A stretch of DNA of 64,000 bases from Azoarcus sp. CIB (GTDB lineage: Bacteria > Pseudomonadota > Gammaproteobacteria > Burkholderiales > Rhodocyclaceae). Location of the stretch: assembly GCF_001190925.1 (NCBI RefSeq), contig NZ_CP011072.1, forward strand, positions 4,898,001-4,962,000, written 5' to 3'. The notes beneath the pieces were generated by a model. The model was not told where the DNA came from. It made no database searches and saw only the letters and a list, made by a program, of their open reading frames with translations. The position numbers were made by a program, and so were the translations under genes. Positions 11,061 to 44,510 of the stretch are shown here, piece after piece (position 1 is the first letter of the stretch; each line of letters begins with the position of its first letter).

Positions 11061-11076
11061 GATTATTTTCTCCGTA

Positions 11077-14108: not shown

Positions 14109-14134
14109 CCTATTTCTCCTTGGTTGGTTATGAA

Positions 14135-15019
<885 letters not shown>

Positions 15020-15026
15020 TCATCAT

Positions 15027-16600
<1,574 letters not shown>

Positions 16601-16635
16601 TCACCTCGTAGATTGGACTTAACTTTTGAATCCGC

Positions 16636-17082: not shown

Positions 17083-17153
17083 TGCTTCCTCCTGAACGAC
17101 AGGATTCACACCCCAGGTGCGAACCCTGTCGTCGGTTCTCCGATACCCCAGCC

Positions 17154-17708: not shown

Positions 17709-17814
17709 GGAACGTCTCCATTATTTCGTTTGGATCGACGTTTCGGCAGGTCTGGCCTGACGAGTAGATCTATTTGGTTAGTGCGGCAGGGATAACGACT
17801 TGGGCGGCGGTTAA

Positions 17815-19999
<2,185 letters not shown>

Positions 20000-20109
20000 C
20001 GCTCTTCTCACCTATCTTTTCTGAAATTGACCTTCGAAAGCGCCTAGAGACAGCACATCGCACTTGTGGCGGCGCTGCTGCTCGACTGGCGACGTACTTG
20101 TCACGAGTG

Positions 20110-24009: not shown

Positions 24010-24493
24010 ATGAGCTTCGAATTTCCGCCACGCCCGGGCGAACGTCCGCGGACCACGCCTTGTGCACCGCACACCCAGATCAGCCAGAACAGCGCTCCGG
24101 AGGTGCACCGGACCTTCAAGGTACACGCATCGAGTTGCCTTCGTGCGCAGCGAGCCATCGAGAATCTCGGTCCCCGGGGCCGAGGCTCTGGTGCTATCCC
24201 ATGAGCGCGCATGTGGTCCGCCCCAAGCCTTCATGGTCGGTCGCGAGTTCGCCCATGTGCATCCGGCTGATGACGGTTCGATGCACCTGATTCTGCCCCT
24301 GGAGCTGGTCAGCAAAGGCTGGGGCGAGCCACATCCCATGGCCGAGGCGGGCTACATCCCGGCCAATGCCGTGATGGCCTACGCGCCCCGGGACATCGCC
24401 GAGATCGACATCCTGCTGGGCATCCTGCGCACCTCCTGGGACTTTGCCTGCGGCCATATAAATCTACCTTCAACCATCGTCATCCATGAATGA
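24010..24493 (+). pseudogene. DUF5519 (luciferase-domain-like) gene, frameshifted
   Basis: ATG 24010 opens MSFEFPPRPGERPRTTPCAP then HTQISQNSAPEVH. Near 24165 the frame must shift to give SVPGAEALVLSHERACGPPQ, FMVGREFAHVHPADDGSMHL, KGWGEPHPMA and VMAYAPRDIAEID, all features of the DUF5519 family of unknown function. Stop 24491-24493. One frameshift separates the halves, so it is broken as written. Confidence 0.6.
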
Positions 24494-24503
24494 GGAGAAA
24501 GCA

Positions 24504-25723: not shown

Positions 25724-26872
25724 CTAGCCAAACTGCCGCCTGAACCTGCGCACGCCAATACCGAAGATCCCCACCCCCAGCAGCGTCAATCCCAGCAGCG
25801 AATCCCACAGCACGTCGAGCCCCGCGCCCTTGAGCAGGATGCCGTAGCCCATCTCGATGAAGTAATAAAGCGGCGAGAGGTACATTGTCTCGCGCAGTCC
25901 GGCGGGCATGGCCTCGGGCGGGGTCCAGGCGCCGGACAGGAAGACCATGGGCATGAGGATGAAAATGGCCAGCATCGCCGCCTGGGCCAGGTTGCGGCTC
26001 AGGGTGGCGATGTAGAGACCGAGCCCGGAGGTGGCGACGGTGTAGAGGGTGGTCACGGCGAAAAACAGCGGCAGGCTGCCCTTGATGGGCACGCCGAAGA
26101 CCGGCACCAGGACCAGGAACAGGGAGATTGCGGTGCCCGCGAGGATCACCAGGGTCATGGAGATCACCTTGGGCAGCAGGATCAGCGCCGGGGTCAGCGG
26201 CGAAACCAGCAGTTGCTCGATGGTGCCGCGCTCCTTCTCGCGCACCGCGGCGGCGGCCGGCAGCATGATGGCCATGACGGTGATGACGGTCAGCAGCTCC
26301 GAGATGGGGATGAACCAGGCATCGTTCTGGTTCGGGTTGTACCAGACGCGGTGCTGGTCCTGGATCATGGGGACAGTGTCGAGGCTCGCCTCGCTCGCCC
26401 CCATGCGCGCCAGCGCCGCCTCGAAGCCGTAGCGACCGATGATCTGGCCACTGTAGCTGGCGGCCAGCGTCCCCAGCACGGTGTTGCTGGTGTCCACCAG
26501 AACCTGCACGTCCGTGGGCCGGCCGCTCTGCAGGTCACGCTGAAAGTAGGGAGGGATGTCCAGCACCGCCAGCGCCTGCCCCTGGTCCAGCAGCGCCTGC
26601 CCTTCGCGGCTGTCCTGGATCTCGCCGCCCAGCTGGAAATAAGGCGGACGGAAGCGGTAGATCAGCTCGCGGGAGGCGGCGCTGTGATCGGCATCGTGCA
26701 CCACCACCGTGGCATGGTTGAGCTCCAGGCGCACATTGCGGGTCATGTAGATGTCGGCGGTGAACAGGAAGACGATGGCGAACATCAGAAAGCCGTCGCG
26801 AAAGAGCTGCAGCAGCTCCTTGACTGTCATCGCTGCCAGCCGCGACCACCAGAGTGTCAACCTTGAGTTCAT
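25724..26872 (-). CDS. ABC-2 type transporter permease (second)
   Basis: 382-residue YhhJ/YbhR-like permease: N-terminal membrane helix (residues ~23-45), a large periplasmic segment, then a five- to six-helix ABC-2 domain with the AAAAVREKERGTIEQLLVSP motif (residues ~215-235) typical of drug-efflux permeases. ATG 26872 overlaps the stop of the preceding permease (ATGA). It is the last gene of the long minus-strand array and pairs with the other permease as the membrane channel for the ATPase. Confidence 0.9.
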   Translation of the reverse strand: MNSRLTLWWSRLAAMTVKELLQLFRDGFLMFAIVFLFTADIYMTRNVRLELNHATVVVHDADHSAASRELIYRFRPPYFQLGGEIQDSREGQALLDQGQALAVLDIPPYFQRDLQSGRPTDVQVLVDTSNTVLGTLAASYSGQIIGRYGFEAALARMGASEASLDTVPMIQDQHRVWYNPNQNDAWFIPISELLTVITVMAIMLPAAAAVREKERGTIEQLLVSPLTPALILLPKVISMTLVILAGTAISLFLVLVPVFGVPIKGSLPLFFAVTTLYTVATSGLGLYIATLSRNLAQAAMLAIFILMPMVFLSGAWTPPEAMPAGLRETMYLSPLYYFIEMGYGILLKGAGLDVLWDSLLGLTLLGVGIFGIGVRRFRRQFG

Positions 26873-28023
26873 GTGCGCGGTCTTTTGTGAAAGAGCGCGA
26901 AGCTGATCAGCCACAGCACGGCCGCGTAAATGGCCAGCGCCAATGCCTTGCCCCAGAGCTGTTCCAGGCCCACCCCCTTGAGGAAGCTGCCCAAGGCGAT
27001 GTCGGTGAAATACATGGCGGGAAACAGGTGCGCCTCGAATTGCCCCTGCGGGTCCATGGAGGCGATGGGCACCAGCAGGCCCGAGTACAGCACGGAGGGG
27101 ATGATGGTCATGACTACGGTCAGCATCATCGCCGCCACCTGGGTGCGCACGATGAGCGAGGCGAGCAGGCCGATGCCCGTGGTGCAGGTGACATAGATCA
27201 CCGAGGAGAGGAAGAAGAACAGCGGATCGCCCTTGAACGGCACGCCGAACAGACCGGTGGCGAGCGCCCACAGAATGAGGCTGTTGACGATGGAGATACC
27301 CACGTAGGGCAGGAGCTTGCCGGCCAGGAATTCGCCGCGGGTGACGGTGGAGGCATAGATGTTGTAGATGGAGCCGCTCTCCTTCTCGCGCACCACCCCC
27401 AGCGCGGTGAGGAATGGAGGCGCCACCATCAGCACCAGCATGACCAGCGCCGTGGCGATCGACCAGGTGCTCTTGAGCTCCTGGTTGTAGAGATAGCGCA
27501 GCTGCACCCGCACCGGCTGGGCGAGCGCCGCCGCCCGTTCCGGCGCGACGCCGAAGCGGCGGCTGATATAGGCGGCCAGCAGTTCGCCGTTGAAGGCCGC
27601 GTTGATGGCGATGACGTAGGCCTTGCTGGTCGAGGCGCGAAACGGGAAGGTGCCGTCGATCAGGCTCTGCACCGCCGCGGGCCGCCCCGCCATGAGGTTC
27701 TCCTCGAATTTTGGCGGAACCACGATGGCGAAGCGGATGCGGCTGTCGGCGAGCAGGGGGTCGAGCTCGCGTTCGCTCTTCACATGGCCCCGGTAGTCGA
27801 AGTAGCGCGAGTCGATGAAGCGGTGGGTGTAGTCGCGCGAGAGGGCGCTGCGGTCATGGTCCACCACCGCGAACGGGATATGCTCCACGTCGAGCGACAG
27901 GCCGTAGCCGAAGACCAGCATCAGCGCAGCGGGCACCACGAAGGCCAGCGCGAGAAACAGGCGGTCGCGCACGATCTCGCGCCACTCCTTGTGGGCCAGC
28001 GCCGCGATGCGTGCGAGGTTCAT
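26869..28023 (-). CDS. ABC-2 type transporter permease (first)
   Basis: 384-residue YbhS-like permease with the same layout as its downstream partner: KEWREIVRDRLFLALAFVVP at the first helix, an extracytoplasmic domain, then ALGVVREKESGSIYNIYAST and a C-terminal block of hydrophobic helices. It overlaps both the ATPase gene (28020-28023) and the next permease by 4 bp. Two different permeases probably form a heterodimer. Confidence 0.9.
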   Translation of the reverse strand: MNLARIAALAHKEWREIVRDRLFLALAFVVPAALMLVFGYGLSLDVEHIPFAVVDHDRSALSRDYTHRFIDSRYFDYRGHVKSERELDPLLADSRIRFAIVVPPKFEENLMAGRPAAVQSLIDGTFPFRASTSKAYVIAINAAFNGELLAAYISRRFGVAPERAAALAQPVRVQLRYLYNQELKSTWSIATALVMLVLMVAPPFLTALGVVREKESGSIYNIYASTVTRGEFLAGKLLPYVGISIVNSLILWALATGLFGVPFKGDPLFFFLSSVIYVTCTTGIGLLASLIVRTQVAAMMLTVVMTIIPSVLYSGLLVPIASMDPQGQFEAHLFPAMYFTDIALGSFLKGVGLEQLWGKALALAIYAAVLWLISFALFHKRPRT

Positions 28024-29981
28024 AGCCGCTGCTCCCCCTGTTCCAAGGCCGTGATCCGGTAGACGAACACATCCTCCAGCGAGGGCGGGCGCGGTGTCAC
28101 GCCGGCGAGCCCGATGCCGCGGCCGGCGAGGATGGTCTGAATCTCGCGCGTCGCGGTGTGCGCATCGCGGGCAAACAGATGGATGTGCCGGCCGAACAGC
28201 GCCACCCCCGCGAAGCCCGCCTGCTCCAGCAGCGCCATGGCGGCCAGCGGCCGGTCGGTGGCGACCTCCAGCAGCTCGCCGGCCTCCTCGCGCAGGGCCT
28301 GCTTCAATGCCGCGGGCGGGTCGTCGGCGACGATCCGTCCGGCGTGCATCAGGGCCAGGCGGTCGCAATGCTCGGCCTCGCTCATGTAGTGGGTGGTGAT
28401 GAGGATGGCGACCTGCTCCACGCGGGCGAGATGGACGAGGATGTCCCAGAAGCGGCGCCGGCCGATCGGGTCCACGCCGGAGGTGGGTTCGTCCAGGAAC
28501 AGGATGCGCGGCCGATGCACCAGGGCGCAGGCGAGCGCCAGGCGCTGGCGGATGCCCAGCGGCAGGCGGCCCGCCAGCTGCCGCTCGCGGCCCGTAAGCC
28601 CGGTCAGCTCCGCCACCTGTTCGATGCGCTCGCCAGCCGCGTGCCGCGCTACGCCGTAGATGCGGGCATAGAGGCGCAGGTTCTCCAGCACGCTCAGGTC
28701 CTGATACAGGGAAAACGCCTGGGAGGTGTAGCCGATGCGCGCCTTGATCGCCTGCGCGGCAAAGTGCATGTCGGCCCCGGCCACCCGCCCCTCGCCATCG
28801 CTGGGCGGCAGAATGCCGGTGAGCATCTTGATCAGCGTGGTCTTGCCGGCACCGTTGGCGCCCACCAGACCGAAGATATCGCCCTGATGGACGGTGAAGC
28901 TCGCGCGATCCACGGCACGGAAGCCGTCGAAATCCCGCGTCAGATCCTTGGCGAGGATGGCGACATCGTCGCCAGGCGGATCGCCGTCGCCGGCCCGAGG
29001 TTTGGCAACGGCCCTCTCCTCGACCAGCCGCTGCCGGCGCAGGAGGGCGACGAAGGCGTCCTCGAGATCGGGCGTGGTGGCGTGCAGGTCCCGCAGAGAC
29101 AGTCCCTTGAGGAGCCCGGCTACCGTGCCGACGGCGGCTTCGGGCTCCGCGTCGTCCACGAACACCCGCAGCCGCGGCCCCACCGACTCCGCCTGCGCAA
29201 GGCTGGCCTGGATGCGGTCCAGCGCCTCCACCTGCGGCTCGGCCTCGAGTTCCACCACGCTGCCCGGCGTCCGGGCCCGGATCGCATCGGGTTCGCCGCT
29301 CGCAAGCACGCGCCCGCCGTGCATCAGGGACAGGCGGTGGAAGCGCTCGGCCTCGTCCATGTAGGCGGTGGAGATCAGGGCGGTGATGCCATTCTCGCGC
29401 AACAGCTCGGCGAGGATGGCCCAGAAATCCCGGCGCGAGACCGGATCGACACCGGTGGTGGGCTCGTCCAGGACGATGAGCTCCGGCTCGTGGATCAGGG
29501 TGCAGACGAGGCCGAGCTTCTGCTTCATGCCGCCGGAGAGGTGTTTCATCGGCCGGCCGGTGAAGCGGTCGAGCCGCGTCATGGCCAGGAGCTTCGCCTT
29601 GCGCGCGGCAATCTCTGCGGCCGGCACGCCGCGCAGGCGGGCGAAAAAGTCGATGTTTTCTTCCACCGACAGCTCGGGATAGAGGTTGAGGCCCAGGCCC
29701 TGGGGCATGAAGCCGAGCCGGCCCTTCACCCGCTCGGCCGCCGCCTCCGAATCGATGCGGATGCCGAACATTTCGATCGAGCCCTCCTCGAAGGCGAGCA
29801 CCCCGGCGACGGCCTTCATGAGGCTGGACTTGCCGGCGCCGTCCGGCCCGATGAGGCCGTAGATTTCACCGCGCCGCACCTCGAGATCGACCCCGGCGAC
29901 CGCCGCCTGCCGGCGATAGCGCTTGCCGAAACCCTGCACCCGGACGGCCGGCGCGGGCGTTAGCGGCGCGGCTTCGCCCAT
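28020..29981 (-). CDS. Tandem ABC transporter ATPase (RbbA/YbhF-like)
   Basis: 653-residue protein with two nucleotide-binding domains. Domain 1 (~15-235): Walker A GPDGAGKS, signature LSGGMKQK, Walker B LIVLDEPTTGVD. Domain 2 (~345-570): Walker A GANGAGKTT, a degenerate signature (LPLGIRQRLA), Walker B ILFLDEPTSGVD. ATG 29981 follows GAGGACACCCC and overlaps the adaptor gene. With the HlyD adaptor and two ABC-2 permeases it forms an exporter of the YhiI-RbbA-YhhJ / YbhGFSR type. Confidence 0.92.
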   Translation of the reverse strand: MGEAAPLTPAPAVRVQGFGKRYRRQAAVAGVDLEVRRGEIYGLIGPDGAGKSSLMKAVAGVLAFEEGSIEMFGIRIDSEAAAERVKGRLGFMPQGLGLNLYPELSVEENIDFFARLRGVPAAEIAARKAKLLAMTRLDRFTGRPMKHLSGGMKQKLGLVCTLIHEPELIVLDEPTTGVDPVSRRDFWAILAELLRENGITALISTAYMDEAERFHRLSLMHGGRVLASGEPDAIRARTPGSVVELEAEPQVEALDRIQASLAQAESVGPRLRVFVDDAEPEAAVGTVAGLLKGLSLRDLHATTPDLEDAFVALLRRQRLVEERAVAKPRAGDGDPPGDDVAILAKDLTRDFDGFRAVDRASFTVHQGDIFGLVGANGAGKTTLIKMLTGILPPSDGEGRVAGADMHFAAQAIKARIGYTSQAFSLYQDLSVLENLRLYARIYGVARHAAGERIEQVAELTGLTGRERQLAGRLPLGIRQRLALACALVHRPRILFLDEPTSGVDPIGRRRFWDILVHLARVEQVAILITTHYMSEAEHCDRLALMHAGRIVADDPPAALKQALREEAGELLEVATDRPLAAMALLEQAGFAGVALFGRHIHLFARDAHTATREIQTILAGRGIGLAGVTPRPPSLEDVFVYRITALEQGEQRL

Positions 29982-31069
29982 GGGGTGTCCTCGCGCCAAC
30001 GGATGATGGCATCGGCCGGCAGCCCCGGCGTGAGGCGGTGCTCCGGGTTTACATCCAGATACAGCTTGACCGCATAGACCAGCTTGACCCGCTCGTCCGG
30101 TGTTTGCACCTCCTTCGGCGTGAACTCCGCCCGCGCGGCGATGTAGCGCACCGTGGCGGGGAACGGCCGGTCGGGGAAGGCGTCGGTGTACACCCGCGCC
30201 GGCAGCCCCAGGCGCACCTTGCCGATGTCCTTCTCCGGCACATAGGCCTTGAGATAGAGGCGGTCGAGATCGACGATGTCGAAAAGCGGCGCACCCGCGC
30301 CGACCACCTCGCCCGCATTCACCAGACGCTGGGTGATGATGCCGTCGGCAGGCGCGACAATGGCGAGATCGGCGAGCACGCTCTCGGCCTCTTTCAGCGC
30401 GGCCCGCGCCTGATCGAGCTGGGCGGCCAGGGCCTTGACTTCATCCTCCCTGGCGCGCAGCCGTTCATCGCCCAGACGCGCCTGGGCAAGCTGCCTTTCC
30501 GCCACGCGCACGGCCTCTTCGGCCGAGCGCGCCTGGTTGGCCGCAACCTCGGCGGCCAGCGCCATCTGCTCGTAACGGTGCCGATCCACCGTTCCCGCCT
30601 CGGCCAGCCTGCGGAAGCGCTCGGCATCCCGCGCCGCCTGCTCCGCGCTGGAGTGGGCCGAGGCGAGCTGCGCGCGGGCATGGGCGAGGTTGGCCTCGGC
30701 GGTTTGGATCGCCAGGGGCAGGTCCTTGCGCGCGACTGCGAGCGCCGTCTGCGCAGCCCGCCATTGCGCCTCCATGGCGCTTGCCGCCTGGCGGGCCTGA
30801 TCGAGTCTGGCGCGGACCTGGGCATCGTCCAGGCGGGCGAGCACCTTGCCCTTCTGCGTGCTATCCCCTTCGCGGGCAGGGAGATCAGCCACCTTACCCG
30901 GCATCTTGCCGGCGACGGCATAGTGATCGCCCTCGATACGGCCGTTGGCTTGGATCAGTCCATCAGGCAGCGGCGGCGTGCGCAGCCAGAACCACCAACC
31001 CGCGACGGCGAGCAGGGCCAGCACGGTCAATCCGGAAACGAGCCCAACGGACGGGATGTTTTTCTTCAC
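29960..31069 (-). CDS. HlyD-family membrane fusion (adaptor) protein
   Basis: 369-residue periplasmic adaptor: one N-terminal membrane helix (residues ~10-30), a split lipoyl/barrel-sandwich domain (QANGRIEGDHYAVAGKMPG and IVAPADGIITQRLVNAGEVV), a long Ala/Arg/Glu-rich coiled-coil hairpin between them (~85-235) and a beta-barrel. GTG start at 31069 after GAGGGAGCCAGC is preferred to an in-frame GTG further upstream, and begins MKKN. Bridges the ABC exporter to an outer-membrane factor. Confidence 0.9.
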   Translation of the reverse strand: MKKNIPSVGLVSGLTVLALLAVAGWWFWLRTPPLPDGLIQANGRIEGDHYAVAGKMPGKVADLPAREGDSTQKGKVLARLDDAQVRARLDQARQAASAMEAQWRAAQTALAVARKDLPLAIQTAEANLAHARAQLASAHSSAEQAARDAERFRRLAEAGTVDRHRYEQMALAAEVAANQARSAEEAVRVAERQLAQARLGDERLRAREDEVKALAAQLDQARAALKEAESVLADLAIVAPADGIITQRLVNAGEVVGAGAPLFDIVDLDRLYLKAYVPEKDIGKVRLGLPARVYTDAFPDRPFPATVRYIAARAEFTPKEVQTPDERVKLVYAVKLYLDVNPEHRLTPGLPADAIIRWREDTPWAKPRR

Positions 31070-31082
31070 GCTGGCTCCCTCT

Positions 31083-32387
31083 CTAAAGATCGCCCACGGC
31101 ACGCTTCAGTCGCAGTCCAGCCAGCGCGGCGTCATAGTGCGCGGCGGCGTGATTGGCCTCGCTGTTGACGCGCAGGGTTTCGGCGTCCAGCACCTCGGTA
31201 TGGGTGGACAGGCCGTTGGCATAGCGGTCGCGCACCACGCGCAGGTTTTCCTCGGCCTGGTCGATGGCCGAGCGGGTGACCTCGATGCGCTTTCCCGTTT
31301 CCTCCACGTCGAGCCAAGTCTGGCGCACCTGCAGGGCGACCACCGAGGCGAGCTCCTCGCGCTGCTCCGTCAACGCTGCCGCCTGGCGCTCGACCGCGCC
31401 GGCGCGGTGACCGGCCACACCGCCATCGAACACGTTCCATCGGGCTCCCAGGGTGACCATCCACTGCCCTTCATGCACCTGATAGCGGTTTTGCTGGTAG
31501 CCATAGCCGCCGGACAGCGCAATCTGCGGACGATTTTCTCCGCGCACGGCTGCCGCCTGATGGCGTAAGGCCTCGATCTGTCCGGCCAGCGCGGCCAATT
31601 CGCTGCGCTGGACGAGCGCCCGCTCGGTCAAGCGCGCCAAGGGTACCCGACCCGCATCGGGGGCCAGTTCATCCAAGCTGACGGCCTGGTCAAGCGGTCG
31701 CCCCAGCAGCCGGTTGTAGGCCGCGCGGGCCAGATCCAGGGCATTGGCCGCCTGCAGGGCCTTTTGCCGTGCATCGGCCAGGGCGACCCGCACGGAGAGC
31801 AGGTCGCTCCTGGCCACCATGCCCTGCTCGTGCAGGTTTCCCACATCGCGAGCATGGGCCGACAGACTCTCGACATGGCTTTCGGCGACCTTCAGCATCC
31901 GGCCGGCGCGCAGCCCGTTGACGTAGGCATCGGCCACGCGCAGCTTGAGGTTCTGCACGTCGGCCGTCTCGCCCAGCCTCGCCGCCTCCAGGCCCGCCGC
32001 CGCCGCATCGATGCCGCGCTCGATGCGGCCCCCGGTGTAGAGCGGCAGGGTCGCCATGGCCTTGTAGGCGGCGCTGTCTTGCTGGGCCATCGGCATCTGC
32101 AGCGACTGGCCGAGCAGGTCGGCCCTGAACGCCGGCGTCTTGTCGAGGGCGATATAGCCTGCCTCCAGACTCACGCTGGGCAGGCTGCTGGATCGGGCAG
32201 CCTCCAGCAGGCTCTCGGCGGCGCCGGTGTTTTCGCGCGCCGCCTTCAGGCCGCGGTCCACGCCCAGGGCGGTGTCCCATGCCTGCGGCAGGGATTCGGC
32301 AGCGGCGTTGCCCGCGAGCAGCGCGGCGGCCAGGCCTGCCAGCGGCAGCAGGCCGCGGAGTCTTTTTGGGTGATGAGCGGAATTCAT
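31083..32387 (-). CDS. TolC-family outer-membrane efflux protein
   Basis: 434 residues with a signal peptide (cleavage after about AGNAAA, residue ~29) and the two OEP repeats of TolC-like proteins: AWDTALGVDRGLKAARENTG and SLEAGYIALDKTP in repeat 1, then LSGGYGYQQNRY, WNVFDGGVAGHRAGAVERQA and TWLDVEETGKRIEVT in repeat 2. It lies between the RND pump and the HlyD/ABC genes, overlapping the RND gene by 4 bp, so it could serve either pump. Confidence 0.9.
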   Translation of the reverse strand: MNSAHHPKRLRGLLPLAGLAAALLAGNAAAESLPQAWDTALGVDRGLKAARENTGAAESLLEAARSSSLPSVSLEAGYIALDKTPAFRADLLGQSLQMPMAQQDSAAYKAMATLPLYTGGRIERGIDAAAAGLEAARLGETADVQNLKLRVADAYVNGLRAGRMLKVAESHVESLSAHARDVGNLHEQGMVARSDLLSVRVALADARQKALQAANALDLARAAYNRLLGRPLDQAVSLDELAPDAGRVPLARLTERALVQRSELAALAGQIEALRHQAAAVRGENRPQIALSGGYGYQQNRYQVHEGQWMVTLGARWNVFDGGVAGHRAGAVERQAAALTEQREELASVVALQVRQTWLDVEETGKRIEVTRSAIDQAEENLRVVRDRYANGLSTHTEVLDAETLRVNSEANHAAAHYDAALAGLRLKRAVGDL

Positions 32388-36744: not shown

Positions 36745-36988
36745 GGGGCGGGTTTTTCCGATTGGACTTTAAATGGTGATTAGCAGGACGCGGGCCAGCC
36801 ATTCTGCGGACGCGGCCTTGTCGGTGCCGCGAGTGTTGCGGCGGCCGGTGCGGAGCGGCCTCGTAGGCAGCGCGCTCCGGCTGGGGCATCCGCATCTGAA
36901 ACTGTTTGCCGAGCTGATCGGCACCGAATGCCGGTGTGCTGCCGAAAGACAGAAGAGCGCCGGACAGAACGTGCGAGAGCCACATTGA
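36674..36988 (-). CDS. Possible small exported protein upstream of the RND genes
   Basis: 104 codons beginning MWLSHVLSGALLSFGSTPAF, with a plausible signal peptide (cleavage after about residue 22), then a basic, Pro/His/Arg-rich tail. Its last ~70 bp overlap the start of the adaptor gene. No family is recognised and the tail looks like translation of non-coding sequence, so it may be a truncated or spurious gene filling the 266-bp gap at 36745-37010. Confidence 0.3.
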   Translation of the reverse strand, partial: SMWLSHVLSGALLSFGSTPAFGADQLGKQFQMRMPQPERAAYEAAPHRPPQHSRHRQGRVRRMAGPRPANHHLKSNRKNPPHEKKKPAHTHGAAGALRSLDRMR

Positions 36989-37010
36989 ATGGGGGCGTGG
37001 TGAAGGCAAG

Positions 37011-39539
37011 TTACTTCTCTCTTTTGCGGAAATACACCTGGGCAACGCGGCGAGCAAACACCACCTTTTGACGCCACCAAACATGCAGCGATGTCCGCAC
37101 TCTGTCGGTCCACGAAGCGCCCGGGGGCAACAGCTCCCGTCCCAGCACCGACTCGAACGCCCGTAGCTGCGCCAAGTAGACCTGGACGTGACGCAATTCG
37201 AAGCGCTGCGGGTCGATCTGCCCGTAGTCTTCCACGAGCCGGTTGAATAGCGCGCGCAGCCGGTCCGCGCGAAGACGGAGCAGACCGTCTTCGGCATGCT
37301 CCGTCGCCAGCCGGGCGAGTTCGAGTCCCCGATTGACGAGCGCGTCAAACCCCTTGATGGCAGGGCGACCCTCCAAGCGCCCGATCCGCTGGAACGGAAG
37401 TTCCAAGTACACCGCGAGCACACGCCGCAAGTCGGCGAGGATCGCCTCCTCCAGTGCCAGGGGAGGACGCTCGACAAGCGGGATATCCTCGGTTCCCGAT
37501 GCCGACCGGCAGGCCCGCAAGTCCTCGACATAAAGCCGGGAATCGCTGAAATACCCAGTGACCTGTCGGGTTGTTGCCTGCTCAAGCTCGTCGCGAGACG
37601 CGTCGCTGAGCACGCGCGCCATCGAGCGCAATGGCTGCCACATCGAGAGCGGAAAACGGGAAAAGCGATAAGGCGCCTGAGTTCCAGGCAGCAAACGGTA
37701 GGCGATCAATTCCTCCTGCAACGACGGGTCTTCTTCGAACCGTGCTCGGATGCCCTCGAACACGTCCAAAGGCATGCTCGGCAGCCCTATCCGGTTGCCG
37801 AGGGAGCGGCGGCCATAGCCACCGGCCGCAAGCATCTGCGCCACGACGTCCGCGCAATTGAAATCGCTCCGGTGCCATTGCAGGCTGCCATCCCGGAACG
37901 CGCCTTCCTGGCGGCGCGCCTCGGCCACCATCGCGGCGCGGCTTTCGGGGGGAACGCCCCGGACGCGCAAACCGAGCGTCTCGCGGCCGTAGGCCATGCC
38001 ATAGGTGTTGGTATGAACTTGCGATGGGGACGGACGAGTGACACCGTACAAATAGTCCGCAAGGCTCACGTGCTGGAGAAAATTTGGATCGACGGAAGGG
38101 TCCGCGATGTAGTTCGCGCTATAAACGACGCCCTCGATACGGATGGCAAGGTGTCCGAACGGATTTTCGCGGACGAGCCGCTCCGGCGTCTGCGAGGTCG
38201 CGTAGGAAAGCAGCAACTCGACCTCGGCCGGTGACTCGGCGTCGAGTCGTGCGAGCGCTGCGTCGATACCGAGCACCGGCGCGCCATCTTCGACCCCGTA
38301 AGTCGGCAATGGATGTACGGGATCCTCCGCGTCGTCCAGTGCGAACCGGGCGATGCTGACGATGTTCGTCCGCTCTCTGTACTGCCGTTGGGCGGTGAGG
38401 ATTTCTTCCCGTCGGACCGGATCGGAGAGGATTTCCTCGACCAGTCTTCCCGCGTCTTCCGCATTGCCAGCAAAACTGGCCAGCCCTTGGCGCACGAACA
38501 GGGCGGCGTTCTCGCGCTCGTGGCCGCTGATGACATCGAGGAGGATAGTCGGCACGCCGATCGTGAACGCTTCCGCCGGCGTCAGTCCTCCCGCCTTGGT
38601 GATCAGGACGTCGGCGGCACCCATGTACGCAGTCATGTCGGATCGTGGCACCAGTCCCACGACCTTCAGTGTTAGCCGCGACGGCAGGCTTCCGCGCAGC
38701 TCCTCCAGCCTGGCGCGCAGGCGCGCATTCGCGCCACAGGCGGCGATGATCTGCAGGCTGCCGGGAACATGACGCATCACGCCGTCGATGATGCCCGCAT
38801 AGTCCCCCTGGCCTTCCTTGCCGCCCGCGAGCGTCAGGGTGGGAATGTCCGGCGATAACCCGATACGCGCGCGGATGTCCTGGCGAGCGACTGCGGACAC
38901 CGCCTCAAACTGCACCGGCATCCCGCTGGTGATTACCTTGTCCGGTGGCACGCCTGCCGCCAGCCAGCGCGATTCCAGTTCCGGGTGCGCCAGAAAGGTG
39001 CGATCAATCAGCTTGGAGATACGTGGAAAGTAGCCCTCGAAAAAGTCCGTATGCAGCCATCCGATTCTTCGATTGGCCAGGAACCCCTTTTCGCGCAGCG
39101 TTCCCAGCACCTGGGCGGCGCCGTAGTGGGTCGACAGGATGACGTCCGGCGCCTCTTGGGTCAGGTAGGCGTTAACTTTCCCCTCAGGGTAGTCAGTGGG
39201 CAGCATCGACAGCGAGGGAATGCGGTTGCCTCCGGTTTGCGTCGCGTCGAACAGGCTCTCGAAGCACTCGGGCAAGTTGCTGGCGACGAACCAGTACAGG
39301 CGTTCGTCGACTCTCCGCCAAACCGGGTGCATGAAGGCGCGAATGTCCTGTAGAACCACCTCGGTGCGCCGGGATTGTCGATGTATTTCAGCCCTTATGG
39401 CTTGAGCAGCGCTGATGTGCCCGTAGCCGATCGACGAATAGAAAATGACGATCTTCTTCGGTGGCAAGGACGCGTCCATTTTCATTCCCTGCTGGCTTGT
39501 CACGCGGGCCGGCTGAGGGTTGGGGCTCATTAAATTCAT
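37011..39539 (-). CDS. MGDG-synthase/MurG-like glycosyltransferase fused to a papain-like domain
   Basis: 842 residues, about twice a normal enzyme of the family. N-terminal ~400 residues are a GT-B glycosyltransferase: FYSSIGYGHISAAQAIRAEI (acceptor-side glycine/His loop) and the donor-side LITKAGGLTPAEAFTIGVPT, as in diacylglycerol glycosyltransferases. Residues ~460-600 hold a possible circularly permuted NlpC/LRAT-like papain fold: FGHLAIRIEGVVYSANYI with His, then DFNCADVVAQML with Cys. The C-terminal ~240 residues are helical and basic, ending FRKREK. Start ATG 39539; alternatives 39485 and 39479 would still keep the Gly loop. Probable glycolipid synthesis or modification; substrate unknown. 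Confidence 0.75.
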   Translation of the reverse strand: MNLMSPNPQPARVTSQQGMKMDASLPPKKIVIFYSSIGYGHISAAQAIRAEIHRQSRRTEVVLQDIRAFMHPVWRRVDERLYWFVASNLPECFESLFDATQTGGNRIPSLSMLPTDYPEGKVNAYLTQEAPDVILSTHYGAAQVLGTLREKGFLANRRIGWLHTDFFEGYFPRISKLIDRTFLAHPELESRWLAAGVPPDKVITSGMPVQFEAVSAVARQDIRARIGLSPDIPTLTLAGGKEGQGDYAGIIDGVMRHVPGSLQIIAACGANARLRARLEELRGSLPSRLTLKVVGLVPRSDMTAYMGAADVLITKAGGLTPAEAFTIGVPTILLDVISGHERENAALFVRQGLASFAGNAEDAGRLVEEILSDPVRREEILTAQRQYRERTNIVSIARFALDDAEDPVHPLPTYGVEDGAPVLGIDAALARLDAESPAEVELLLSYATSQTPERLVRENPFGHLAIRIEGVVYSANYIADPSVDPNFLQHVSLADYLYGVTRPSPSQVHTNTYGMAYGRETLGLRVRGVPPESRAAMVAEARRQEGAFRDGSLQWHRSDFNCADVVAQMLAAGGYGRRSLGNRIGLPSMPLDVFEGIRARFEEDPSLQEELIAYRLLPGTQAPYRFSRFPLSMWQPLRSMARVLSDASRDELEQATTRQVTGYFSDSRLYVEDLRACRSASGTEDIPLVERPPLALEEAILADLRRVLAVYLELPFQRIGRLEGRPAIKGFDALVNRGLELARLATEHAEDGLLRLRADRLRALFNRLVEDYGQIDPQRFELRHVQVYLAQLRAFESVLGRELLPPGASWTDRVRTSLHVWWRQKVVFARRVAQVYFRKREK

Positions 39540-39541
39540 GA

Positions 39542-40321
39542 TTACTTTTCACTGCCTCCAGCCTCGATGCTGGCAGCGATCCGTTCAGCCAGTTCGAGTG
39601 GACGGCCGTTCCCTGTGGCCGTCGCAAGGGTGCGCGCCTCCTGCGTCGCCTGACGGCACAGGTCGCGCGCGGCGCACAGGAGGGCGGTGCGTGCCTCGCA
39701 GCGCTCCATGGCATTGGCTTCTTGCAGCAACACGTGGCTCGCCACGAGGGTTTCGCCGTAGCGCCGAGCGACGCCGGCGAGCGGTTCCGGGTAGCCCGCG
39801 AGCGCAGCCCCTGTGGCACCGGCCGCCCCGCCCAGCGGCGCCGCCAACCGTTGACGGGTTCGCACCCGCTGCGTCGGGTCATCGACGCCATCTCGCGCCG
39901 GGCTCAGATTGGCGGCCTCCAATTCCGCGGCACGGTTGACCGCATTAGAAACCAGGGCGAGGACTTGCAGGTCAGCGCAGCGCACCAGCAGGCGGAAGGC
40001 CCCGGTGGTCAAGTAGTCGCCCGCCAGCACGGTGGCGGCGTTGCCGAGATGCGCGGATGGGCCGCTCGCCGCATCGACGTGGGCATGCAATTGCTGCAGG
40101 CTGAGATGGATCAGGTCCAGGGCCGTGCCGGCATCGATGCCCGCCTGCCCGGGATGGAAGCTGCTGGTCACCAGCGCCCGGATCGGAATCTGCTGGCCTG
40201 ACAGCAACAGGCGCAAGGCAAGCTGGACGGGGGCGGCCTCGCAGGTCAGGGCGCCTGTAATGGCGGCGCGGACGCCCGTCATCACAGCCTCGGGGAAGTT
40301 CATGGGATGCCTGTCAGTCAT
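39542..40321 (-). CDS. Isoprenoid-synthase-like protein (polyprenyl synthetase family, atypical)
   Basis: 259-residue Ala/Leu-rich helical protein. The segment LIHLSLQQLHAHVDAASGPS followed by GNAATVLAGDYLTTGAFRLL resembles the polyprenyl diphosphate synthase pattern in which an Asp-rich motif precedes a VLxGDxL block, but DDxxD is replaced by HAHVD and no second Asp-rich motif is obvious. It may be an inactive or regulatory homologue, or use a different substrate. The start at 40321 overlaps the patatin stop; ATG 40303 is an alternative. Next gene starts 2 bp after its stop. Confidence 0.55.
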   Translation of the reverse strand: MTDRHPMNFPEAVMTGVRAAITGALTCEAAPVQLALRLLLSGQQIPIRALVTSSFHPGQAGIDAGTALDLIHLSLQQLHAHVDAASGPSAHLGNAATVLAGDYLTTGAFRLLVRCADLQVLALVSNAVNRAAELEAANLSPARDGVDDPTQRVRTRQRLAAPLGGAAGATGAALAGYPEPLAGVARRYGETLVASHVLLQEANAMERCEARTALLCAARDLCRQATQEARTLATATGNGRPLELAERIAASIEAGGSEK

Positions 40322-41261
40322 CAGTGGGCGCTCCTGCCCAGCGGGCCAATTGCTGCGCCGCGCTGCGGTAGCCGATCTCGATGATTTCCTCGGCGCGGTC
40401 GAACTCCATGAAACGCACCGCGCCCAGCGGCGGGCGGATGAGGATGTCCGACTTGTCCTGCCGCAGGCTGGCCTGGGTCATGCGCGCCTGCATGATGTAG
40501 ATCGAGCTCAGCAGCACGTCGAAGATGCCCGGCAGCGGTTCCGGCTCCTTGTGCAGCCAGGCTTCGAACTGGGCCAAGCCGGGGTTTGTTCGCAGGCTTG
40601 CCATCAGGCGCGCCATGGCCTGGGTATGGAATGTTCCCTGTGAGTTCGAATCTTGGCGGGATACCCGGCTCGCCACGATGTCGTGGTTGAGGTCGACGGC
40701 GATGACCAGGCCAGCGCCCATGGCACGCACCACGCTCACCGGCACCGGGTTGACCAGACCGCCGTCGACGAGAATGCGGCCATTGCTGCGCACCGGCGTG
40801 AAGATGCCGGGCACCGAGATGCTGGCACGCACCGCATCGATCAGGTCGCCCGAGGCGCACGCCACCTCCTCGCCGCTCATGATGCAGGTGGCCACGGCGC
40901 GGAAGGGAATCGGCAGGTCCTCGATGTTTGCCGCTGCCACATGGGCGCGCACGAAGTCCGCGATTCTTTGCCCGTCGATCAGGCCCGAGCGGGGGAGAAC
41001 GGGGTCGAGCAGACCGGCGATCTGGCGCCAATCGAAGGCGCGAAAACGATCGGCCAAGCCCCCGATCTTGCCGGCGGCATATACCGCGCCCACCACCGCG
41101 CCTATGCTGGTGCCGGCGACCAGATCGACCTTGATCCCGGCCTCCTCGATGGCGCGCAGCACGCCGATGTGCGCCAGCCCGCGCGCTGAACCGCTGCCCA
41201 GCGCCAGGCCGACCTTGCGCGCGGGCGGATTGGGAACGGTTTCGGGTGCGGGTTTCGCCAT
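40314..41261 (-). CDS. Patatin-like phospholipase (RssA-type)
   Basis: 315-residue lipid acyl hydrolase. GLALGSGSARGLAHIGVLR (residues ~18-36) forms the oxyanion hole, GTSIG (~50) is the nucleophile elbow with catalytic Ser, and VDGGLVNPVPV (~165) supplies the Asp of the Ser-Asp dyad. No signal peptide or transmembrane helix, so cytoplasmic or membrane-peripheral. It starts 2 bp after the kinase gene. Likely releases fatty acids from phospholipid. Confidence 0.9.
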   Translation of the reverse strand: MAKPAPETVPNPPARKVGLALGSGSARGLAHIGVLRAIEEAGIKVDLVAGTSIGAVVGAVYAAGKIGGLADRFRAFDWRQIAGLLDPVLPRSGLIDGQRIADFVRAHVAAANIEDLPIPFRAVATCIMSGEEVACASGDLIDAVRASISVPGIFTPVRSNGRILVDGGLVNPVPVSVVRAMGAGLVIAVDLNHDIVASRVSRQDSNSQGTFHTQAMARLMASLRTNPGLAQFEAWLHKEPEPLPGIFDVLLSSIYIMQARMTQASLRQDKSDILIRPPLGAVRFMEFDRAEEIIEIGYRSAAQQLARWAGAPTDD

Positions 41262-41263
41262 CT

Positions 41264-42937
41264 CTAGCCCTTGCCGCCACGCCAGATGGAGAACAGCACC
41301 CAGATGCCGCCGATGACGGCGGCGATGAAGCCGAGCAAGCCGAAAGATGGCAGGCCGGGCTCGCGCTCGACGGTCATGACGATGGCCGAGCCGATGATCA
41401 GGGCGGCGGTGACGACGCTGATCGCCAGGCGGCTGGCGGCGCGGTCGAGACGGTCGCCGAAATGCTTGAGGGGCAGGACCTCGACTTGCACCAGGAGCTT
41501 GCCGCGCCGCGCGGCGCGCAGGAGCTGGCGCAGGTCTTGCGGCAGCCCGGCGACGAGGGCAAGCGTGTCGCGCAAGGCGCGCCAGCCGCGCCAGACCAGG
41601 GCGCCGGGCGCGGCGTGGGCGAGCAGCACCCGTTCGAGAAACGGCGTAGCCTCGCCCGCCATGTCGAAGTCGGGGTCGAGCTGGCGCCCCAGTCCCTCCA
41701 GGGCGATGAAGGCCTTGATCAGCAGCGCCAGGTCGGGCGGCAGGGTGAGGCCGTGCTCGCGCAGGATGGCGACCAGGTCGGAGAGCATGGCGCCCAGATC
41801 GAGGTTCTTGAGCGGCACGCCGTGATACTGGTCGGCGAAGGCGTCGATCTCGGGCTGCAAGGTCTCGCTGTCGATCTCGGCGCCGCCGCTCCAGTCCAGC
41901 AGCACTTCGGCCACCTTCTCCGCATCGTGGCTGACGAGACCGTGCAACAGCACGGCCAGCTGATAGCGGCGCTCCTCGGAAAGGCGCCCGACCATGCCGA
42001 AGTCAATGAAGGCGATGCGGTTGTCCGGCAGGTAGAAAACGTTACCGGGATGCGGGTCGGCGTGGAAGAAGCCATCTTCGAGCATCATCTTGAGCACGGC
42101 CCGGGCACCGCGACGGGCCAGCAGCCTGCGGTCGAGGCCGGCCGCGTCCACGGCGGCCAGGTCGCGGCCGGCAATGCCATCGACATAGTCCTGCACATTG
42201 AGCCGCCCGCCGGTCCACGGCCAGTGGATGCGGGGAACGACGATCTCGGGGTGATCCGCGAAGTGGGCGGCGATGCGCTCGGCGCTGCGGCCCTCGGCGG
42301 AAAAATCCAGTTCGCGGCGCAGCGACAGGGTGAAATGGCGCACCACCTCCCGCGGCCGGTAGCGGCGCAACTCGGGCGCTTCCGCCTCGACGATCTCGGC
42401 GAGACGGGCCAGCAGGCGCAGGTCAGCCTCCACGATCGGCCGGATGCCGGGGCGCCGCACCTTGAGGATGACCGCCGTGCCGTCAGCAAGCCAGGCGCGA
42501 TGCACCTGGGCCAGCGAGGCCGCCGCAAGCGCCTGCATCTCCAGGCGCGGAAAGATGGCCTCGGGCGGCTCGCCCAGGTCCTCCGTCAGTTGCGGCAGCA
42601 GCTCGGCGAAAGGGATGGCGGGCGCCGCGTCCTGCAGCTTGCTGAACTCGGCGATCCATTCCGGCGGGAACAGATCTACGCGGGTGGCGAGGATCTGCCC
42701 CAGCTTGACGAAGCTCGGCCCCAGCTCCTCCAGCGCCCGGCGCAAGCGGGCCGGCGGCTCCAGCCGCGCCAGTTCCTCCGGTTCGTGCCAGTGCAGGGCG
42801 CGGCCGGCACGTTCCAGGGCGCCCGCCATGCCGATCCGCCGCACCAGATCGCCGAAGCCGTAGCGGATCAGGACTGAGGCGATGTCATGCAGGCGGCCCA
42901 GGTCGCAGACGGCGCCGATCGCTTGCCATAGCATCAA
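41264..42937 (-). CDS. UbiB/ABC1/AarF-family atypical kinase
   Basis: 557-residue UbiB-like protein. Diagnostic elements: the family KxGQ motif in LGPSFVKLGQILATR (residues ~73-87), ALAAASLAQVHRA (Ala-rich nucleotide loop), HADPHPGNVFY (catalytic) and IAFIDFGMVGRL (metal-binding DFG), then two C-terminal membrane helices (~500-550). UbiB proteins support ubiquinone synthesis and lipid homeostasis. Its grouping with patatin and lipid-type enzymes, rather than ubi genes, suggests a specialised lipid role. Overlaps the upstream gene by 4 bp. Confidence 0.9.
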   Translation of the reverse strand: MMLWQAIGAVCDLGRLHDIASVLIRYGFGDLVRRIGMAGALERAGRALHWHEPEELARLEPPARLRRALEELGPSFVKLGQILATRVDLFPPEWIAEFSKLQDAAPAIPFAELLPQLTEDLGEPPEAIFPRLEMQALAAASLAQVHRAWLADGTAVILKVRRPGIRPIVEADLRLLARLAEIVEAEAPELRRYRPREVVRHFTLSLRRELDFSAEGRSAERIAAHFADHPEIVVPRIHWPWTGGRLNVQDYVDGIAGRDLAAVDAAGLDRRLLARRGARAVLKMMLEDGFFHADPHPGNVFYLPDNRIAFIDFGMVGRLSEERRYQLAVLLHGLVSHDAEKVAEVLLDWSGGAEIDSETLQPEIDAFADQYHGVPLKNLDLGAMLSDLVAILREHGLTLPPDLALLIKAFIALEGLGRQLDPDFDMAGEATPFLERVLLAHAAPGALVWRGWRALRDTLALVAGLPQDLRQLLRAARRGKLLVQVEVLPLKHFGDRLDRAASRLAISVVTAALIIGSAIVMTVEREPGLPSFGLLGFIAAVIGGIWVLFSIWRGGKG

Positions 42938-43794
42938 ACGTCCTTGCCGGTCTCTTTCGATTCCAGGCGGGCAGCGATGCCTTGGAGCAGGCCGGCGGCC
43001 AGACCGGCCAGCAGCGCGGCTTCATGGCGCACGACCTCCGCCCCTTTCTTGGCCTGTTCGCGCGCACCTGCCGTAACGGCCTGGGTCAGTTGCTCGAGCG
43101 CGATCCGGGTACGTTGGCCGACGGCCGAGCCACTGCTGCGGGCATGTTCGGCAAGCTCGGTGAAGGTGGCCTGGACAGTGCCCCGGGTATCGCGCGCTGC
43201 GTCCTGCAGCGTTTCGATGAACAGCGTCTGCAGCGTGGCCAGTTCGTCCGCCGCCTGCTTCAGCCCCTGCCGGGAGAACTCACTGGTGCGACCCGTGGCC
43301 TCCTGAATGGCCAATTGTGCGGCCTCCGCTGCGCCGGCCAGCGCCTCGTCCAGACCGCGCATCGCCTCTTTCAGCGCTTGTCCGCCGCGTTCCCCGAGCG
43401 GCACGGCGCCTTCGCGGGCGCCTCTGACCACGGCCGCCGTCACGCGTTTGAGTGCATCGGCATCAAGATGCCCGCGCGTGAGAGCATCGAGCGTGATCGC
43501 ACGCACCTGAGAGGCGACCGCGGCCGGGTCGGTGGCAAGTGCGCCTTGTACGCGTTGCTCGAGTTCCTCTGGCGTCATGGAGGGAAGACGTCCCTGCTCC
43601 TTGAGCATCCGGTCGATCTCGGCCTCGGCCTCCAGCCAGTCCTCTGCCACGTTGCCGCCCACAAAGCCGCTCTTTTCCGCGCGAAAATAGGCGGCCTCCG
43701 CGATCATTCGATAGCGTTCCTCGGCGGTGACGGGCGGATTCTTCTCCGCAACGGATTCCTGCGCCGCATTCGAAGTGGAAGTGGATTTGGCCAT
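42934..43794 (-). CDS. DUF2934/DUF6781-like, phasin-like helical protein
   Basis: 286 residues without membrane segments. N-terminal RYRMIAEAAYFRAEKSGFVG and EDWLEAEAEID match the short DUF2934 motif. The rest is a long run of amphipathic Ala/Gln/Glu-rich helices (VTAGAREQAKKGAEV and similar), as in DUF6781 and phasin-like proteins. Such proteins coat hydrophobic surfaces in some cases, but no function is established. AAGGAG precedes ATG 43794. Overlap with the UbiB gene shows coupled translation. Confidence 0.7.
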   Translation of the reverse strand: MAKSTSTSNAAQESVAEKNPPVTAEERYRMIAEAAYFRAEKSGFVGGNVAEDWLEAEAEIDRMLKEQGRLPSMTPEELEQRVQGALATDPAAVASQVRAITLDALTRGHLDADALKRVTAAVVRGAREGAVPLGERGGQALKEAMRGLDEALAGAAEAAQLAIQEATGRTSEFSRQGLKQAADELATLQTLFIETLQDAARDTRGTVQATFTELAEHARSSGSAVGQRTRIALEQLTQAVTAGAREQAKKGAEVVRHEAALLAGLAAGLLQGIAARLESKETGKDV

Positions 43795-43883
43795 GGTCGC
43801 TGCTCCTTTTCAAAGTGAGAGTGTGGAAAATCCGGCGTGTGCGGGGCCGGGTATCGGTATGAGCTTGTCCAGGCGCCCCATCC

Positions 43884-44510
43884 TCAGCGTGCCTCCCCAT
43901 CGGCTGAGGCCAGCCTCCCTCGCAGCAGATCGCATACGTGGCGTGCCAATACCTCGGGGTTGTCCTGCTGGGGCCGGCGTCCTGGCATGAACTTACGGGT
44001 TGCACCGGCTTGGAAATGGAAGATCACCAGGCCAAAGATCGACATCGCGAGCAGGTGGGCATCCACATGTGGGTCCAACTCGCTGGCGAGATCGTGGACG
44101 GCAACGAACATGTCCCTGAATACCTGTTTGGCCAAGGTACTCTGACGCGCCTCGTTGGTGTCCAGCAGTACCCACTGCACCAGCCGCAGAAAGTCCTTGT
44201 CCGAGGCCATCATCCGGGCGAGCCCCGCAACAAAGCATTCAAGCCGTTTCCATGGGGTGCCGTTGCCGGCCAGCATGTCTTTCAGTGCGGCCACTCTTTC
44301 CCGGAATTCGTAGGCCACTGTATCGAGATAGAGCTGGTTCTTGTCGGCGAAGTGGTAGTAAAGCGCCGCCTGGGTGAGGCCGACGGCGGCAGCGATATCG
44401 CGCATCGAGACGCCGTCATAACCGTGCCGCGCAAACAAAGGCGTCGATAGCTCAAGAATCTCTTCCCGCGTTTTTCGCTTGCGAATGATCCTAATCGGCT
44501 GGCGGATCAT
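43884..44510 (-). CDS. TetR-family transcriptional regulator
   Basis: 208 residues: an N-terminal helix-turn-helix (LELSTPLFARHGYDGVSMRD, IAAAVGLTQAALYYHFADKN) and a helical ligand domain with a TetR_C-like hydrophobic core. First gene of the long minus-strand array, 89 bp upstream of the DUF2934-like gene, and most likely the repressor of the whole lipid/efflux unit. The ligand is unknown; a lipid or aromatic compound would fit the neighbours. Confidence 0.88.
   Translation of the reverse strand: MIRQPIRIIRKRKTREEILELSTPLFARHGYDGVSMRDIAAAVGLTQAALYYHFADKNQLYLDTVAYEFRERVAALKDMLAGNGTPWKRLECFVAGLARMMASDKDFLRLVQWVLLDTNEARQSTLAKQVFRDMFVAVHDLASELDPHVDAHLLAMSIFGLVIFHFQAGATRKFMPGRRPQQDNPEVLARHVCDLLRGRLASADGEAR

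Follow-up and report, generated by a model that had tools for sequence, protein, structure and literature searches.

A recurrent gene block joining lipid-type enzymes to efflux genes, and its possible part in hydrocarbon tolerance

Why should genes for lipid cleavage, prenyl-synthase-like and glycosyl-transfer proteins stand head to tail with two exporters behind one regulator gene? The question is raised by a block of 13 minus-strand genes (25724-44510) in a stretch of 64,000 nucleotides, hereafter the window, from Azoarcus sp. CIB (NZ_CP011072.1, positions 4,898,001 to 4,962,000). The same partners recur elsewhere: related blocks of mixed ancestry are found in bacteria of oil, fuel and solvent sites, suggesting that the genes form a transferable kit that helps cells to live among hydrocarbons. 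The reading favoured here, with about even confidence, is a mobile cassette for hydrocarbon tolerance, in which efflux is coupled to lipid mobilisation and to remodelling of the envelope by glycolipids.

Recurrence and mosaic ancestry

A scan of genome contigs with the glycosyltransferase protein of the block (GT) gave 25 loci besides the window, and a plasmid search two more; all locus counts cover the DNA obtained, in which some contigs end early (that of L029 inside the RND gene). An adaptor and an RND pump of the window's family stand beside the GT gene in 19 of these 27 loci, and a full UbiB gene in 16, all among the 19; efflux genes thus travel with lipid genes across genomes, and the refuting condition set in an earlier note made from the window sequence alone, that the two be rarely adjacent elsewhere, does not hold. 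A shortened UbiB gene occurs in three loci, the patatin gene in 13, the synthase paralogue in 12, and HlyD with the ABC ATPase in nine. The regulator is a related TetR in 15 loci and a different protein, TetR_B, in the seven loci of type B described below. Chance adjacency is ruled out by this recurrence of the same partners.

The order of the genes differs between lineages. In the Aromatoleum/Zoogloea type (L008-L011 and the window), TetR is followed by DUF6781, UbiB, patatin, synthase, GT, RND, TolC and ABC. Type A (Polaromonas, Rhodoferax, Herbaspirillum, Hydrogenophaga) starts with TetR, hypA, DUF883, DUF6781, UbiB and GT and continues with patatin, synthase (not in L022), RND, TolC and, in some loci, ABC. 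Type B (Pseudomonas, Halomonas, Stenotrophomonas, Tepidicella, Extensimonas, Sulfuricella) has the order RND, TolC, UbiB, patatin with synthase (in two of seven loci), GT, TetR_B and two coiled-coil proteins. Type A encodes a repeat protein, and type B a coiled-coil protein, whose N-termini resemble signal peptides. Junctions between lipid and efflux genes can be close. The annotated synthase and adaptor genes of Polaromonas share 37 bp, or are about 14 bp apart if the adaptor is counted from the point where its homology to the window's adaptor starts, and 9 bp separate the TolC and UbiB genes in type B. At L019, GT, TetR and adaptor genes occur without UbiB, the GT gene lies between adaptor and RND, and the RND gene is split into two parts, one on each strand. 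L020, L024 and L032 look like remnants or variants, the UbiB remnant of L032 being a tblastn match only, and L017 is a short contig; L023, L025, L028 and L030 hold a GT of other phyla and, within the extent of their contigs, none of the other cassette genes.

In strain JS666 (L007:24962-25219), an HlyD gene fragment follows TolC at the site of the ABC module in Herbaspirillum and Rhodoferax, and the module was therefore probably lost there. In a flank from Hydrogenophaga aromaticivorans (L058:3895), the second ABC-2 permease is directly followed by a piece of TolC, 85 residues long and 75% identical, which may be left over from a previous order of the genes. A Roseibium aggregatum plasmid (L036, 8868-21402) has coilB with TetR_B, a TetR-adaptor-RND group and a separate UbiB-DUF6781 pair; this split arrangement is a possible intermediate between chromosomal and cassette forms.

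Trees of three proteins place the window's genes differently: the RND groups with type A (support 100/99) and the GT with type B (100/100), and the UbiB falls among chromosomal UbiB of Rhodocyclales, one from the window's own genome included (100/99). Forced trees were rejected for RND with type B (approximately unbiased test, p-AU 7.5e-49), GT with type A (1.3e-45) and UbiB of all cassettes together (5.5e-8), values that flatter the result because the groups were named after the trees had been seen. A tree that unites every cassette RND with those of L019, Roseibium and Sphingopyxis was not rejected (p-AU 0.23), and the cassette RND may have been recruited once or twice; a narrower RND grouping was rejected, as expected, because L019, L036 and L037 fall among the cassette RNDs. 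The GT and UbiB trees and the forced trees were built without the near-identical L009 and L010 and without rows under the length limits (the L031 GT, in two frames, and the short UbiB of L013, L024 and L027), the RND tests without L131, L135, L136 and L138, and a first UbiB tree of only 13 rows was replaced by a larger one. The conflicts contradict simple vertical inheritance of one cassette, and by these trees the window cassette is a mosaic of RND, GT and UbiB of different ancestry. That parts of differing ancestry were assembled into the same functional set is taken here as the strongest sign that their functions belong together.

Genes of the block

The head-to-tail arrangement and tight packing of the 13 genes, described earlier with a single 266-bp break, were confirmed at their coordinates (Table 1; families assigned by Pfam and NCBIfam profile searches). 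Neighbours overlap or lie at most 2 bp apart, barring two larger gaps: from TetR onwards the spacings, computed with the first possible start codons, are 89 bp, then -4, 2, -8 and 2, then 266 bp. Every junction in the efflux half overlaps, the longer TolC/HlyD and HlyD/ABC overlaps depending on GTG and TTG starts. Two details need amendment: the families DUF2934 and DUF6781 were rightly named but belong to one protein, and the 266-bp break, real in the window, is specific to its arrangement, the corresponding junction being close in Polaromonas. A consensus scan of 36600-37100 detected no sigma-70-type promoter and no terminator, a result that says little in either direction. Inverted repeats are present upstream of the TetR gene.

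Table 1. Features of the block and its surroundings in the window
Feature	Position	Strand	Profile evidence
TetR-family regulator, head of block	43884..44510	-	PF00440 56.2 bits
DUF2934+DUF6781 helical protein, UbiB partner	42934..43794	-	PF20572 163.8 bits, PF11154 52.8 bits
UbiB/ADCK-type atypical kinase or ATPase, hydrophobic C-terminus	41264..42937	-	PF03109 234.8 bits
Patatin-like phospholipase, RssA-like	40314..41261	-	PF01734 116.2 bits
Degenerate octaprenyl-diphosphate-synthase paralogue	39542..40321	-	profile E 1.2e-13 to solved octaprenyl diphosphate synthases
MGDG-synthase/GT28-type glycosyltransferase (GT), ~residues 25-406, fused to unclassified C-terminal part, ~420-842	37011..39539	-	
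266-bp gap between lipid half and efflux half	36745..37010	-	
RND periplasmic adaptor	35665..36744	-	TIGR01730 200.1 bits, cut-off 94.9
RND pump, AcrB/AcrD/AcrF family	32384..35665 (ATG) or 35668 (GTG)	-	PF00873 518.8 bits
TolC-family outer-membrane channel, sole one in block	31083..32387	-	PF02321 183.5 bits
HlyD-type adaptor, YbhG-like	29960..31102	-	PF13437 78.3 bits
Double ABC ATPase	28020..29999	-	PF00005, two stretches
ABC-2 permease 1	26869..28023	-	PF12698 153.5 bits
ABC-2 permease 2	25724..26872	-	PF12698 116.5 bits
Old-yellow-enzyme-type oxidoreductase adjoining block	24486..25595	+	PF00724 292.4 bits
Toluene-dioxygenase-type meta-cleavage pathway, companion and not cassette part	6635..20011	-	see text
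Transposases	1616-2998, 4225-5754, 45051-46217		

The glycosyltransferase part of GT carries an MGDG_synth domain (PF06925, 56.4 bits; cut-off 25), and a structure search predicts for it a GT-B fold closest to MGD1. Its fusion partner of about 430 residues matched no Pfam or NCBIfam model, and a PDB profile search with it gave nothing credible; short haemagglutinin matches and a dynein match (E 0.0013) were taken as chance. The partner was compared with the permuted papain fold of LRAT, Lnb and NlpC-like proteins, in which a His precedes a Cys that starts a helix: H463, H509 and N561-C562 of this partner are invariant in 20 sequences, and C562 opens a helix (562-575) in a medium-confidence predicted model; a fold search with the whole protein was filled by the GT domain. 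The family Lnb_N (PF13387), searched in 21 genomes, was found at one locus (L153), where a regular-expression look yielded nothing. GT is rare, since 0 of 398 other genomes of the window's order hold a full-length match (three matches of 28-29% identity cover less than half of the protein) and only 4 of 200 relatives carry it, all of the window's genus and the window's own genome (5.26 Mb, single contig) among them. Aromatoleum toluolicum has a GT protein 100% identical to the window's. At a contig end, Zoogloea oleivorans (G512:C84:1-873) has part of another GT homologue besides its first, with 50% identity over residues 514-804.

The isoprenoid-synthase function proposed earlier for the gene before GT did not survive inspection of its motifs. 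Its core aligns with the octaprenyl diphosphate synthase IspB, whereas both aspartate-rich motifs (DDxxD) and the GGKRxRP motif are replaced and the C-terminal part is lost; both aspartate-rich motifs are replaced in all four synthase paralogues aligned to IspB, the window's included (the row IspB_L151, in the wrong frame, was disregarded). An active isoprenoid synthase is excluded by this loss, and the protein is called a dead octaprenyl-diphosphate-synthase paralogue because its active-site motifs are replaced. Its Pfam polyprenyl_synt score is 23.4 bits, below the cut-off of 27, and its predicted model has a mean pLDDT of 60 and is poor in the first half. Inactive subunits of heteromeric prenyl synthases offer a comparison. 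A similar sequence on an Ideonella plasmid (L038) is a distant relative outside any cassette.

The UbiB protein has all of the motifs KxGQ, AAAS..QVH, D.H.GN and DFG, and scores 475.6 bits with TIGR01982, just under the curated equivalog cut-off of 487.55. DUF6781 adjoins UbiB at four of six chromosomal loci inspected (L110, L112, with patatin, L113 and L114; not L111 or L115). One of these loci (L110:9597-13966, about 2.256 Mb) belongs to the window's own genome, which therefore has the DUF6781-UbiB pair twice. This copy lies beside MacB/FtsX-type ABC genes and about 6 kb from an MlaD-type gene; these neighbours give a hint that the pair serves lipid traffic. The 11-residue periodicity of hypA was not found in DUF6781, for which 393 of 500 shuffles reach the window value. 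The shortened UbiB genes (L013:9426-9989, L027:9426-9989 and L024:9264-9833) lack the kinase region and keep approximately residues 1-67/75 and a C-terminal part (187-189 amino acids); the junctions differ between L013 and L027, both from type B isolates, and L024, from a metagenome-assembled genome, and the loss may therefore have happened more than once. The patatin has a GTSIG nucleophile and a DGG motif (Ser-Asp dyad) and scores 223 bits with NF007623 (RssA), below the curated cut-off of 272.

In the efflux half, the pump is an AcrB-family RND protein with an adaptor and a TolC-type channel, as in solvent pumps of the Ttg/Sep type. Against curated multidrug permease models its best score is 465.1 bits (NF033617), with a cut-off of 1250. 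It has one aspartate (VDAAIV) in what we take to be the fourth transmembrane segment (TM4), presumably a resemblance to heavy-metal pumps. The HlyD adaptor scores 147.3 bits with NF002939 (secretion protein HlyD), below the cut-off of 393; by arrangement, we take the double ATPase to be YbhF-like and the exporter to be of the YbhGFSR type.

Hydrocarbon setting and candidate functions

Conjugation genes lie on one side of the block (TraI_2, 452.6 bits; TraG_N, 272.7 bits), and by its gene content the block lies on a conjugative element; the mobile-island setting suggested in the earlier note is upheld by these genes and by two of the 27 loci, which are conjugative Polaromonas plasmids. On the other side is a toluene-dioxygenase-type pathway with Rieske/ring-hydroxylating alpha and beta subunits, a BphC-type dioxygenase, a DmpG-type aldolase and a TodX/FadL porin. 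This tod-like pathway is 96-99% identical in L064, and an alpha subunit 72% identical lies near the cassette of plasmid pPNAP01 (L076). The old-yellow-enzyme gene has homologues near other cassettes, 66-80% identical in L007, L029 and L072 and 99-100% identical in four sister elements; it stands near cassettes of several lineages on either side (L007:9260, L029:503, L072:117).

The proposed tie to hydrocarbon catabolism is supported by two markers. Of the 25 host genomes, 11 encode a catechol 2,3-dioxygenase above the curated cut-off, compared with 6 of 250 genomes of the order (Fisher p 2.9e-9). With the window's genome added to the hosts, phenol/toluene hydroxylase is found in 7 of 26, compared with 11 of 250 (p 4.6e-4). 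Flanks were fetched for 21 of the 27 loci (not L017, L023, L025, L028, L029 or L030), and AlkB-type fusion, tod-like or Ndo-like genes lie near eight of them (L006, L008-L011, L016, L018, L021); L032 has weak ring-hydroxylase matches in its flank. The AlkB-type fusion occurs near a type A cassette (L006) and near type B cassettes (L018, and L016 via flank L044). It is an alkane-hydroxylase-type protein fused to ferredoxin and reductase domains (L018:16351-22139, L006:26461, L044:649), and its gene is followed by those for a GMC oxidoreductase and an acyl-CoA ligase. A related RND (56% identity) is encoded on a plasmid of Sphingopyxis fribergensis, with alkB at a distance of about 9 kb. Among the hosts, P. 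frederiksbergensis SI8 is described as isolated from soil below a fuel bladder and growing in jet fuel (PMC4505138, PMC7900218), Tepidicella baoligensis as coming from an oil well (PMC7516150), and Extensimonas soli from coking-plant soil with polycyclic aromatic hydrocarbons (PMC11936349).

Published lipid data accord with a glycolipid-making role. In Table 1 of PMC11936349, the carrier E. soli H3M7-6 (L027) is listed with unknown glycolipids and the carrier 'E. perlucida' HX2-24 (L013) with a glycophospholipid and an aminoglycolipid, and that table lists no glycolipids for E. vulgaris; by its note, the data for 'E. perlucida' and E. vulgaris come from earlier studies. E. vulgaris gave no match in the GT contig scan, in a collection in which the presence of its genome is unconfirmed. 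Patatin and synthase are missing in both Extensimonas carriers, whose UbiB is shortened, so that GT would be the enzyme concerned. The difference between these carriers and E. vulgaris fits, and thereby supports without proving, the prediction made for GT.

A feasible model for the hydrocarbon-tolerance cassette may be as follows. A hydrophobic compound would release the TetR repressor, and the MGDG-synthase-type enzyme (named for monogalactosyldiacylglycerol) would glycosylate a diacylglycerol-like acceptor in the inner membrane, yielding a glycolipid that could stabilise a hydrocarbon-loaded envelope. The patatin, and probably the C-terminal domain of GT with it, would trim or transfer acyl chains. 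The UbiB-DUF6781 pair may move hydrophobic lipids with ATP, with the dead prenyl-synthase paralogue as a putative lipid-binding partner. The RND-adaptor-TolC pump would expel hydrocarbon that has reached the membrane, as would the ABC exporter where present, which may share the same TolC.

Several observations weigh against this model. The RND pump is missing in 8 of the 27 loci. The ABC exporter, counted as a cassette part in the earlier note, proves optional, being found in none of the seven type B loci or their fetched flanks. Patatin and synthase are absent from L012-L015 and L027, and their lack at L012, L014 and L015 departs from the gene set of the earlier note. The UbiB kinase region is missing in L013, L024 and L027; the ABC module, patatin, synthase and UbiB kinase region are therefore dispensable somewhere. 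The glycolipid link compares two carriers with one strain, by thin-layer chromatography spots partly from separate studies. The enrichments ignore ancestry and the bias toward sequencing bacteria from contaminated sites, the control genomes all come from the window's order, to which not all hosts belong, and the window genome itself has neither a catechol 2,3-dioxygenase above the cut-off nor a phenol hydroxylase. Thirteen of the 21 loci with fetched flanks have no strong catabolic marker. Strong markers (a set made of annotated plasmids and of window and locus genes labelled by eye, some later confirmed) occur in 7 of 40 flanks and in none of 20 control stretches, each 20 kb long, from eight host contigs (one-sided p 0.048). 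This contrast is suggestive only, because four of the seven flanks belong to a single element; weak ligase or aldehyde-dehydrogenase matches occur in 5 of the 20 controls.

It may also be conjectured, quite tentatively, that the hydrocarbon leaves the cell together with, or dissolved in, an exported dedicated (glyco)lipid, the UbiB-DUF6781 pair, the dead prenyl-synthase fold, periplasmic amphipathic carriers and the RND and ABC exporters acting as one process; if true, this would be solvent tolerance unlike that of known stand-alone pumps. Possible but doubtful is a route in which GT, patatin and the C-terminal domain make a specific glycolipid that the RND pump, the ABC pump or both then carry to the outer membrane or cell surface, for example as a coat or emulsifier aiding hydrocarbon use. 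The close joining of synthase and adaptor genes in Polaromonas and the GT gene between adaptor and RND at L019 argue for such a route, and the type A repeat protein and type B coiled-coil protein could carry periplasmic lipid. However, among 28 RND matches besides the window's, all 15 fetched chromosomal relatives (not strictly the nearest 15) stand without any cassette lipid gene in the stretch fetched, so that the pump family works without these genes, and the ABC module is optional. Another reading has two independent modules, lipid remodelling and solvent efflux, bundled on mobile elements by selection at hydrocarbon sites with no common biochemistry: the modules have separate histories, the DUF6781-UbiB and adaptor-RND pairs each occur apart on chromosomes, the window has its 266-bp gap, and GT is alone among cassette genes in the four loci of other phyla, as far as their contigs reach. 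Such bundling is nevertheless unlikely, given the same partners in different orders and the close cross-module junctions of Polaromonas and type B.

Protection of respiration in membranes laden with hydrocarbon, with UbiB and the dead IspB paralogue tuning the chain length, level or location of ubiquinone, is improbable. UbiB and the synthase profile are both closest to ubiquinone-pathway proteins, and in yeast the UbiB relatives Cqd1 and Cqd2 are reported to govern the distribution of coenzyme Q (PMC8346625). On the other hand, UbiB falls under its equivalog cut-off, the block has no other ubiquinone genes, the synthase is missing from 15 of the 27 loci, and GT, patatin and the pumps would be left unexplained. 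That the block is a common multidrug or metal efflux cluster carrying passenger genes is highly improbable: RND, TolC, HlyD and ABC are all standard exporter families and the single TM4-region aspartate is presumably like that of heavy-metal pumps, but the RND score is far under the drug-pump cut-off and the hosts are enriched for hydrocarbon catabolism.

Comparison with known systems

The solvent tolerance of degraders is usually ascribed to RND pumps and housekeeping membrane changes. Here, lipid remodelling itself appears to come in one package with a pump, to have passed between species in the vicinity of catabolic genes and to have been reassembled from components of mixed ancestry. This would make it possible to study genetically how degraders withstand the hydrocarbons on which they feed, and would offer a candidate origin of glycolipids left unidentified in taxonomic descriptions and a possible role for the UbiB-DUF6781 pair and for an unclassified enzyme domain, with possible use in bioremediation and in solvent-tolerant production strains. 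The cassette itself was not found described in the literature searched, in which DUF6781 is mentioned in an unrelated context only and no counterpart of the lipid half was found.

Parts of the locus can nevertheless be set beside known systems. The tod-like cluster of Zoogloea oleivorans is reported to be flanked by mobile elements and probably spread by transfer, and the alpha (458 amino acids) and beta (184 amino acids) subunits of the mobile cluster of Z. oleivorans and Thauera DNT-1 match those of the window in length (PMC7012976; alpha frame 17815-19281, counted from the first internal Met, and beta frame 17154-17708). The passages on this cluster do not mention the neighbouring cassette, and the words 'efflux' and 'transporter' occur 0 times in the text. 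Compared with MGDG synthase and the processive diglucosyldiacylglycerol synthase (GT28), the cassette GT adds the C-terminal part of about 430 residues. The cassette UbiB shares the ABC1 domain and motifs with the UbiB/COQ8/Cqd family and differs in its pairing with DUF6781, its place within a mobile lipid-efflux block and its score under the UbiB equivalog cut-off. The HlyD adaptor, fused double ATPase and two ABC-2 permeases are as in YbhGFSR-type exporters, whereas the window adaptor falls below the NF002939 cut-off and the exporter is embedded in the cassette.

The closest parallel on the efflux side is given by the toluene/solvent RND pumps SepABC and TtgDEF. In Pseudomonas putida F1, sepABC is located upstream of a genomic island (PMC3056050). 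An RND efflux operon lies near aromatic catabolic genes both there and in the window. The F1 island next to sepABC presumably holds tod, and TtgDEF of P. putida DOT-T1E is linked to tod genes. The SepABC and TtgDEF operons consist of adaptor, pump, channel and regulator. By contrast, the cassette adds lipid enzymes, UbiB and an ABC exporter, and its RND pump falls under the curated multidrug models.

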